From positions 9,410,182-9,474,181 of the forward strand of contig OY848920.1 of NCBI GenBank assembly GCA_963693285.1: 64,000 nucleotides of DNA, written 5' to 3'. The stretch comes from Xestospongia muta (taxonomy: Eukaryota; Porifera; Demospongiae; Haplosclerida; Petrosiidae). The position numbers were made by a program, and so were the translations under genes. The notes beneath the pieces are model-generated. The model did not search any database. It had not been told where the DNA came from and saw only the letters and a program-made list of their open reading frames with translations. Positions 8,408 through 23,722 of the stretch are shown here, piece by piece (positions within the stretch are counted from its first letter, which is position 1; every line of letters begins with the position of its first letter).

Positions 8408-8479
8408 ATGGGTTCTTGGAGAACGTTGTTTCTACTTACTTTGCTTGGGTCAGTATTTTGTGCTACAGTTAGTCAAGAG
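8408..8479 (+). CDS. G2 exon 1: signal peptide
   Basis: Encodes 24 residues, [20 protein letters not shown] then VSQE, a classic secretory signal with a Leu-rich core. It ends in phase 0 at GAG|GTAAGA. The start is chosen because the same ATGG and leader occur in G3 and G5. The next exon is 2.3 kb away. Confidence 0.85.
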
Positions 8480-23400: not shown

Positions 23401-23722
23401 GGAGGATATAGAGACAAATATCACTCCGTTAGACACAACATACGAAACTATTCCTAGTGATGTCAATACATCATCAGAACATTATGATTATATTGATAGA
23501 CCAAAGAGTGATTCTATAGCAGTTTATGTAGTAGTAAATAGAGATGAAGATTTATCTGAGCAATCAATTCAATTAAATGAGAATGTTGCTTATAACTCTT
23601 CAACCACACAGTCAATGTCATCACCAAATATGGGAGATGTTTCATTAGAACAATCAATTTCTTTAAATGAGAACGTTGCTTATAACAACTTTACTCAACA
23701 ATCGGAGAATGATTATATCTAA
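8408..23722 (+). CDS. G2: long ROS1/Sevenless-like receptor without kinase
   Basis: Thirty-two exons: 8408-8479, 10781-10957, 11091-11223, 11433-11738, 11996-12127, 12206-12438, 12892-12989, 13037-13458, 13975-14070, 14245-14454, 14504-14611, 14798-14967, 15083-15195, 15470-15670, 16004-16272, 16783-16991, 17201-17327, 17407-17594, 17949-18086, 18216-18279, 18429-18622, 18669-18880, 18998-19284, 19371-19550, 19626-19864, 19956-20103, 20272-20669, 20775-20976, 21113-21221, 21430-21617, 22990-23046, 23112-23722. The sum is 6291 bases, 2096 residues, frame open throughout. Order: signal peptide, FN3 x2, propeller, FN3, propeller, FN3 x2, propeller, FN3 x4, stalk, membrane helix (about 1903-1931), 165-residue tail. 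This is the ROS1 ectodomain order, and about 1900 ectodomain residues is also ROS1-like, but the kinase is replaced by a tyrosine-motif tail. Likely a cell-surface receptor; ligand and partner kinase unknown. Confidence 0.85.
8480..10780. other. G2 intron 1
   Basis: Intron with a PIF/Harbinger relic (9766-10258). The first about 1 kb matches intron 1 of G3 and G5, and the stretch from about 10230 to 10610 matches G3 at about 28965-29400. A pyrimidine-rich stretch at 9278-9535 is open in two frames but has no protein character. Confidence 0.7.
9766..10258 (+). mobile_element. PIF/Harbinger-type transposase remnant
   Basis: Two overlapping reading frames (9766-10050 and 10052-10258) carry HARBI1/DDE_Tnp_4 signatures in order: GGVINGCCIPI (family norm G-x-IDG-x-HI-x-I), YYNRKGWFSMILQGVVDH, then VYTGWPENVHNARVFANSP and LPGDSAYPLKSWLLK. 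The frame breaks near 10036, where CGAT is doubled before CGC. The first catalytic Asp position reads Asn. Truncated at both ends and inactive. It sits in G2 intron 1; its former ends are not obvious. Confidence 0.8.
10781..11738 (+). CDS. G2 exons 2-4: FN3 domains 1 and 2
   Basis: Exons 10781-10957 and 11091-11223 (residues about 25-127) form FN3-1, with VTLSWTSYL, then [19 protein letters not shown], and a Cys-rich CGGCLLCF end. Exon 11433-11738 (residues about 128-229) is a whole FN3-2 in one exon: PSPPTNINAQS start, [36 protein letters not shown]. These are textbook FN3 strands. Confidence 0.85.
11996..13458 (+). CDS. G2 exons 5-8: beta-propeller 1
   Basis: Exons 11996-12127, 12206-12438, 12892-12989, 13037-13458 (residues about 230-524). 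Blade repeats are weak YWTD-like: [43 protein letters not shown] and a last, longer exon. The join of exon 6 to exon 7 skips a conserved decoy at 12594-12615 that would put a stop in frame. Exon 8 is the most divergent exon between the long paralogs. Confidence 0.75.
13975..14454 (+). CDS. G2 exons 9-10: FN3 domain 3
   Basis: Exons 13975-14070 and 14245-14454 (residues about 525-626). [20 protein letters not shown] then W-S-P-P opens the domain; [14 protein letters not shown] and [20 protein letters not shown] give the C and F strands. One FN3 between two propellers is the ROS1 arrangement. Confidence 0.85.
14504..16272 (+). CDS. G2 exons 11-15: beta-propeller 2
   Basis: Exons 14504-14611, 14798-14967, 15083-15195, 15470-15670, 16004-16272 (residues about 627-913). 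Blade motifs: [46 protein letters not shown] and [17 protein letters not shown], a YWTD-family pattern of hydrophobic-D-x2-x-(R/N)-(R/T)-LY. The exon 12 donor is GAG|GTACTA and the exon 14 donor GG|GTTAGT, both weaker than average but conserved in G3 and G5. Confidence 0.8.
16310..16660. repeat. 60-base VNTR in G2 intron 15
   Basis: About five and a half copies of a 60-base unit containing ATGGATAAATGGACAGACAG and GACTGATGTAGTATGGACAG. The same intron has about two and a half copies in G3 (36258-36430) and about five in G5 (61360-61675). The long repetitive minus-strand open frames seen here are only this repeat. Confidence 0.9.
16783..18279 (+). CDS. G2 exons 16-20: FN3 domains 4 and 5
   Basis: Exons 16783-16991 and 17201-17327 (residues about 914-1025) form FN3-4: [20 protein letters not shown] then VWDSS. 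Exons 17407-17594, 17949-18086 and 18216-18279 (about 1026-1155) form FN3-5: [27 protein letters not shown], and a last exon [16 protein letters not shown]. These exons align with exons 2-6 of the short genes in size class and phase. Confidence 0.8.
17053..17200. repeat. (CT)n tract ending at 3' splice site of G2 exon 17
   Basis: About 130 bases of CT dinucleotide, with small interruptions, run into CCTCCTATTCAG at the acceptor. G3 has a shorter tract at 36829-36907 and G5 a much shorter one (62090-62129). Confidence 0.9.
17694..17948. repeat. (CT)n tract of about 250 bases ending at acceptor of G2 exon 19
   Basis: An almost uninterrupted CT tract whose last CT pair is followed directly by the acceptor AG and exon 19. 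The tract therefore serves as the polypyrimidine tract. The corresponding introns of G3 and G5 have only 20-30 bases of CT. Confidence 0.9.
18429..19550 (+). CDS. G2 exons 21-24: beta-propeller 3
   Basis: Exons 18429-18622, 18669-18880, 18998-19284, 19371-19550 (residues about 1156-1446). Blades: [56 protein letters not shown] and [15 protein letters not shown]. This is the clearest YWTD propeller of the three and the one retained in the short genes. Intron 21 is only 46 bases. Confidence 0.85.
19626..21617 (+). CDS. G2 exons 25-30: FN3 domains 6 to 9
   Basis: Exons 19626-19864, 19956-20103 (FN3-6), 20272-20669 and 20775-20976 (FN3-7 and FN3-8, sharing exon 27), 21113-21221 and 21430-21617 (FN3-9); residues about 1447-1874. 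FN3 marks: [85 protein letters not shown] and [17 protein letters not shown]. Four FN3 domains between the third propeller and the membrane is the ROS1 pattern. The boundary of FN3-7 and FN3-8 within exon 27 is approximate. Confidence 0.8.
21700..22016 (+). repeat. Tandem partial duplications of exon 30 end (possible 24-base cassettes)
   Basis: A unit of about 130 bases holds a CT tract, then ATGCTAAAG and 24 bases identical or near-identical to the last 24 of exon 30, then GTAAGT. The 24-base pieces are at 21721-21744, 21853-21876 and 21981-22004. Each follows an AG behind a pyrimidine tract and is phase 1-1, so inclusion of the first two would add SSPSTQPP in frame. The third has lost the donor (TTGTTAGT). 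Whether any is spliced is unknown. Confidence 0.55.
22083..22737 (-). pseudogene. Inverted copy of short-gene exons 12-13
   Basis: On the minus strand this matches G1 5020-5690. The stalk exon 13 copy is at 22123-22182 with both splice sites intact on the minus strand. The FN3 exon 12 copy is at about 22478-22621 with its donor kept and its acceptor deleted. It lies antisense within a G2 intron, so it cannot contribute to the G2 protein. One end sits at a CT/GT microsatellite. Confidence 0.85.
22990..23722 (+). CDS. G2 exons 31-32: stalk, membrane segment, ITAM-like tail
   Basis: Exon 31 (22990-23046) is a 19-residue Ser/Thr stalk. Exon 32 (23112-23722) encodes the helix ([20 protein letters not shown] onward) ending IVRYNCY, then the tail. 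Motifs: YDDPALYY, YNYL, the pair YETI-x10-YDYI at 23441-23494, AVYVV, two NVAYN repeats and a final NDYI. YxxI-x10-YxxI fits the ITAM spacing range (6-12). The last repeat, AYNNF, offers a Y-x-N Grb2-type site. Confidence 0.85.

Follow-up and report, generated by a model that had tools for sequence, protein, structure and literature searches.

The window analysed here, a stretch of 64,000 nucleotides (C4:9410182-9474181), belongs to an intron-rich and AT-rich genome of 158 Mb that carries large receptor arrays, traits that might hint at a sponge. Judged by their DNA anatomy, three of the genes in the window (G2, G3 and G4) are kinase-less chimeras of the receptor ROS1, and they lie among short receptors that end in the same type of tail. 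The features of the locus are as follows, in window coordinates:

1180..6829, forward strand: G1, a short tail-type receptor that starts before the window and stands for the tail donor
7767..8407, forward strand: upstream stretch common to the kinase-bearing gene R, about 92% identical, where the copied block starts
8408..8479, forward strand: G2 exon 1, with the start codon and a putative signal peptide (by eye)
10781..21617, forward strand: G2 exons 2-30, the ROS1-type ectodomain, residues about 25-1874 (gene model and comparison with R)
21618..22085, forward strand: first part of G2 intron 30, homologous to R intron 30 (alignment R-like across 21430-22085)
22085..22737, reverse strand: middle of intron 30, an inverted copy (92%) of G1 5008-5682
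22742..22989, forward strand: end of intron 30, oriented as G1 from 5716 and leading into exons 31 and 32
22990..23046, forward strand: G2 exon 31, a 19-residue stalk (gene model; unmatched in G3 and G4)
23112..23722, forward strand: G2 exon 32, phase 1, with stalk, membrane helix, a tail of about 166 residues and the stop
about 23138-23221, forward strand: membrane helix of G2 within exon 32 (by eye)
24607..42904, forward strand: G3, second of the three kinase-less ROS1 chimeras; its 31 exons encode 2084 residues and a single stop (from homologous exons)
44397..49727, forward strand: G3b, a complete short tail-type receptor with the same tail, 15 exons, 898 residues
51485..64000, forward strand: G4, the third chimera, exons 1-23 beginning within the window and the remainder, with the tail, in L034

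The gene model of G2 (8408-23722, forward strand) was rebuilt from sequence and has 32 exons, all GT-AG and with consistent phases. The joined frame encodes 2096 residues with a single terminal stop, identical to the length given in an earlier note on this DNA. Pfam detected fn3 in six stretches of the joined protein (E 1.9e-40) and no kinase domain, as that note had read it, and named no YWTD propeller; in PDB searches, parts of G2 matched the propellers of LRP4/LRP6. The full order proposed earlier, with two FN3 domains, a propeller, one FN3, a propeller, two FN3, a propeller and four FN3 (2-P-1-P-2-P-4), is probable rather than directly read, and is supported by these propeller matches and by the end-to-end alignment of R with chicken ROS1 (see below).

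Exons 1-30 and 32 of G2 were found again in G3 (84-99% DNA identity) and in G4 (89-99.5%), and this recurrence excludes a chance origin of G2. Exon 31 has no match in G3 or G4, and the frame of G3 stays open without it. In G4, the acceptor of exon 19 lies three bases before the mapped start of that exon. In the short receptor G3b, Pfam places FN3 at two positions, and homology to R points to a propeller-like middle part. Its alignments with R cover R residues 1029-1591 at 27% (E 2.4e-38) and, at weak significance, residues 7-176 (E 0.004); on these alignments G3b is a shortened, diverged relative of R without the first two propellers. Pieces of other kinds were also seen in first introns. Window positions 9918-10260, in G2 intron 1, hold a transposase-like piece, presumably of Harbinger type, while positions 26200-27380, in G3 intron 1, hold a fragment with a CCHC zinc-knuckle-like stretch of 13 residues, by eye probably the remains of a retroelement.

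The kinase-bearing twin of the chimeras, gene R, is encoded on the minus strand (C4:9388696-9366455) and begins about 30 kb upstream of G2. It is the sole kinase-bearing copy modelled in full, with 40 exons, 2326 residues and one stop: 30 ectodomain exons (GT-AG) are followed by ten that comprise the membrane exon, the juxtamembrane exons and the tyrosine kinase. G2 has the same 30 ectodomain exons, and 1768 of the first 1876 residues (94.2%) are identical between the two proteins. Among PDB chains, the kinase part of R matched human ROS1 best (3zbf, E 2.8e-107), followed by ALK (about 1e-93) and then the insulin receptor (about 1e-77). A two-kinase chain labelled EGFR (9p9u) ranks fourth with the kinase part and fifth with full-length R, a rank that sums two domains of 171 bits each and lies behind human ROS1 chains both times. 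Full-length R aligned with chicken ROS1 (9oyz_B, 2311 residues) in a single stretch, 49-2230 against 120-2229 (E 4.9e-142), and the alignment was inspected residue by residue over about its first half; 9OYZ is named as chicken ROS1 in a passage of PMC13044245. By these sequence comparisons, R is ROS1.

With G2 alone as the query, Sevenless was found at E 2.9e-8 and was outscored by LRP4/6, Dscam, receptor phosphatases and contactins, and with the middle part of G2 it was not among the matches listed. This low rank is taken as a limit of one-sequence searches. G2 is assigned to ROS1 because its twin R matches ROS1 over the whole length, and a relative of LRP, Dscam or contactin is ruled out by the same match. 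The earlier note had allowed that the FN3/propeller order might fit another family better; for R, no PDB family beats ROS1 over the whole length, and the ROS-type ectodomain that the note proposed is strongly supported by direct sequence comparison with this complete kinase-bearing twin. G2 is then, in terms of its sequence, ROS1-derived and not an RTK, as it has no kinase of its own. An N-terminal cysteine-rich part of ROS1, CATCH, is described in passages of PMC11743138 and PMC13044245. This domain is unmatched in R among the recognised exons, the alignment starting at R residue 49 and chicken residue 120; intron 1 is long, and few residues lie between the signal peptide and FN3-1 in both G2 and R.

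ROS1 is a single gene in human and fly. On C4, the HRDLAARNC exon was found at no fewer than 13 places with 91-99% identity: the plus strand carries three of them (8.55-8.64 Mb) and the minus strand ten (9.168-9.368 Mb). A further match, at 71% identity, lies at 6.23 Mb. Ectodomain exons followed by kinase exons were seen in L037, L039, L045 and L049, each read in part. The regions L037, L039, L045, L047 and L049 represent a large ROS1 kinase expansion on one contig, in which some copies look broken. Exon 23 of L045 matches in two pieces, and this copy is possibly broken; in L039 (8881-9400), kinase exons directly follow third-propeller exons, neither an FN3 nor a membrane exon being found in between, and this is probably a deletion copy.

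Within the window, the membrane-and-kinase part of R gave 0 tblastn matches at E<=1 over all 64 kb, and a genome-wide kinase search placed none inside it among the matches listed. Kinase exons spliced into G2 from downstream had been considered in the earlier note as evidence against its proposal; at the DNA level, the tblastn result leaves no such exons in the window, and hidden ROS1 kinase exons downstream of G2 are ruled out over that stretch.

The transition from ROS1 to tail-type sequence is located in intron 30. DNA homology between G2 and R extends from 7767, about 640 bases 5' of the G2 start codon, to 22085, introns included, with gaps mainly in intron 1. The inverted piece that follows contains, in antisense, the final FN3 exon of G1. 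In G3 and G4 (L034), too, aligned blocks extend across the junction between R-type and inverted sequence, and the alignments of both genes show gaps over the remainder of the inverted piece. Since the junction is common to G2, G3 and G4, the chimera most likely arose once and was later multiplied, as far as its sequence can tell. Thirty ectodomain exons of a ROS1 gene with a kinase, together with its promoter-proximal region, would have ended up beside the tail exons of a short tail-type receptor, this block being inverted relative to R, and a phase-1 intron would let the membrane-plus-tail exon be spliced where R has its membrane and kinase exons. Replacement of the kinase, as proposed at the outset, is strongly supported by the complete kinase-bearing twin and by this recombination scar in intron 30.

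Seven copies of the exon 32 type lie on C4 (9406721-9484820): three belong to the ROS1 chimeras (G2, G3 and G4) and four go with short receptors (G0, G1, G3b and G4b), among which G3b alone has a full gene model. A second, related tail family was found on C2 at 6.75-6.88 Mb, where 21 matches were grouped into 16 places. A phase-1 start of the tail exon is common to G2 and the single C2 copy examined (L026). A random read-through end as the origin of the tail is ruled out, as the same exon is present on other receptors. The C2 region (L022-L030, L050) is itself a receptor array with a related tyrosine-motif tail, and in L050, the one stretch read, the ectodomain has FN3 (E 2.5e-7 and 1.8e-5), together with an Ig match that is weak and does not reach the Pfam cut-off (E 0.017).

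Pfam found no family above cut-off in the tail. AlphaFold predicted one long helix for residues 3-45 of exon 32 alone and gave residues 47-202 a pLDDT below 50, which, for a tail folded from a single sequence, is weak evidence of disorder. Across 11 tails (seven from C4 and four from C2), 22 of the 130 compared cytoplasmic columns are invariant. Tyrosine columns are invariant in 4 of 9 cases and the remaining columns in 18 of 121, an excess that is modest in number, and short motifs arise by chance. YET[IV], N..Y and Y..P each occur in 11/11 compared tails, ITIM-like and ITSM-like matches in only some of them, and the AVY tyrosine was lost in the tails of G3 and G4. Tail dN/dS ranges from 0.54 to 1.27 across 21 pairs of C4 copies, and recent constraint on the tail is therefore weak; two C4-C2 comparisons gave 0.42 and 0.68. 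The number of N[VI]AYN motifs varies between genes (window 6551-6769; end of the G4 tail in L034), and G1 contains a 90-base repeat. The docking function assigned to the tail in the earlier note is indirectly favoured by the predicted disorder and by the tyrosine motifs kept between the two tail families.

In the ectodomain, dN/dS is 0.38-0.50 in 6/6 pairs of G2, G3, G4 and R, with pN/pS above 1 in 3 of 19 blocks of 100 codons, where synonymous changes are few. When the G2-G4 ectodomains are compared with one another, their three DNA distances (3.9-4.5%) all exceed their three distances to R (3.4-3.6%). At 81 two-two sites over these four genes, the three possible splits occur 32, 26 and 23 times. 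Sites with the same split lie in clusters (41 of 80 adjacent pairs against a shuffle mean of 26.5, p 0.0006), for which exchange among G2-G4 alone could suffice. A comparison of six genes over exons 21-30, with 87 singletons, 10 multi-letter and 206 gap columns set aside, left 54 informative two-letter sites: 1 fixed by tail type, 32 cross-cutting and 21 within-type. The possibly broken L045 is involved in 25 of the 32 cross-cutting sites, and without it the counts become 5 fixed, 14 cross-cutting and 12 within-type. Support in a tree of six ectodomains is 42-80%. In these alignments the ectodomains do not sort cleanly by tail type, a pattern compatible with a degree of exchange between tail types; rapid successive duplications combined with slow evolution of R would be an alternative.

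We lean, by a modest degree, towards the interpretation that G2-G4 are kinase-less ROS1 chimeras whose tail would act as a phosphotyrosine dock that diverts or extends ROS1 signalling. The near-identical ectodomain of a chimera would bind the ligand of the kinase twin, and the two receptors would cluster together. Either the twin or a cytosolic tyrosine kinase would then phosphorylate the tail at, for example, YETI, N[VI]AYN and YxxP, SH2 or PTB proteins would dock on it, and ROS1 signalling may thereby be diverted or extended. The likeliest role of the tail would be that of a docking site phosphorylated either by the co-clustered twin or by a kinase of the cytosol, and G2-G4 would probably be phosphorylated when co-clustered with kinase twins. 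The earlier claim that signalling must come from a recruited partner goes too far, since a co-clustered kinase-bearing twin or a decoy would be equally adequate.

A decoy or dominant-negative role, in which G2-G4 compete for ligand or dimer partners and the tail serves trafficking only, agrees with an ectodomain near-identical to that of R, with the absent kinase and with a tail dN/dS near 1 in several C4 pairs, and FGFRL1 was initially regarded as a decoy (excerpt of PMC12026108). We consider such a role rather unlikely, as the tail motifs persist in both the C4 and the C2 family, with ectodomains that differ where examined, suggesting an independent role for the tail. Still less probable is that the chimeras are functionless debris of recent duplication, intact through youth alone. 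Three long frames are intact (G2 and G3 complete, G4 stop-free over exons 1-30) and the constraint on the ectodomain holds in every pair, even though ectodomain dS among G2, G3, G4 and R is only 0.058-0.084, some copies in the cluster look broken (L045 and L039) and tail dN/dS reaches 1.27.

NPxF and Y..[LIVMF] can act as endocytic signals, and YETI and YxxP motifs suit SH2 docking. The former two are found in 6/7 and 7/7 C4 tails, and PDZ-like [ST]x[VLI] ends in G0 and in 2/4 C2 tails, as might be expected of an adhesion receptor whose ectodomain binds cells or matrix and whose tail connects it to endocytosis or the cortex and plays no part in tyrosine signalling. However, G2 ends in DYI and has no PDZ-like end, and the kept YETI and YxxP motifs would suit docking, making adhesion about as improbable as debris. 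Near-identical tandem copies are also prone to misassembly, and the chimera could in principle be an artefact that joins misassembled repeats; this is very improbable, given that the junction between R-type and inverted G1 sequence is bridged by aligned blocks in three distinct genes whose surrounding sequence has diverged.

The locus could also be viewed as a set of RTK-based paired receptors, a proposal that we make tentatively and regard as doubtful. Gene conversion would exchange the tandem ROS1 ectodomains between receptors with a kinase, of which there are 13 or more close copies, and receptors with a phosphotyrosine tail, namely three full-length copies and short relatives. A single recognition surface would thus feed two outputs that oppose or complement each other, and cell-type or self/non-self recognition in an animal of an early branch is one possible use.

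The early history of ROS1, a large receptor with oncogenic activity, is unclear. Here, kinase-bearing and kinase-less ROS1 genes adjoin and have nearly alike ectodomains, a natural tail swap that separates sensing from kinase action, and G2 and R may form a receptor pair in which the same input is sensed and a different response given. If the host is not a bilaterian, an intact ROS1 would conflict with the origin of Sev-specific kinase motifs in bilaterians (as stated in part of PMC8662651) and would fit an origin of ROS1 among early-diverging animals (as stated in part of PMC13044245). In the titles and opening lines of abstracts listed from the open-access literature, we found no report of a kinase-less ROS1 and nothing relevant on Sevenless/ROS1 in sponges or Amphimedon.

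Known ROS1/Sevenless members are described with nine FN3 domains and three propellers (passages of PMC11743138 and PMC13044245). A colinear FN3/propeller ectodomain is also found in R and, through 94.2% identity, in G2. In contrast to ROS1/Sevenless, which have a kinase, G2-G4 have none and carry instead a tail exon from another receptor family. A comparable arrangement is known from FGFRL1, the kinase-less fifth FGF receptor, with an RTK ectodomain, a short tail and a tandem tyrosine motif; according to the same excerpted source, a receptor built in this way, with an RTK ectodomain and a short tail bearing tyrosine motifs, can do more than act as a decoy (PMC12026108). G2 resembles FGFRL1 in its RTK-type ectodomain, membrane helix, lack of a kinase and tail tyrosine motifs, without being an FGFR member. 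Unlike FGFRL1, G2-G4 are of another receptor family with another tail, and the locus offers three tail-swapped copies, a relative of the tail donor and a swap scar that is visible beside kinase twins. Paired immune receptors such as CEACAM1/3, Siglec-11/16 and CD300A/C likewise combine similar ectodomains with different signalling tails, and gene conversion is a theme for them in the opening lines of abstracts (PMC5112662, PMC2832619, PMC5701461, PMC12447643). R and G2-G4 resemble these pairs in their near-identical ectodomains, different tails and clustering. The immune pairs place inhibitory and activating tails on Ig-type receptors, whereas here one partner is a full ROS1 kinase.
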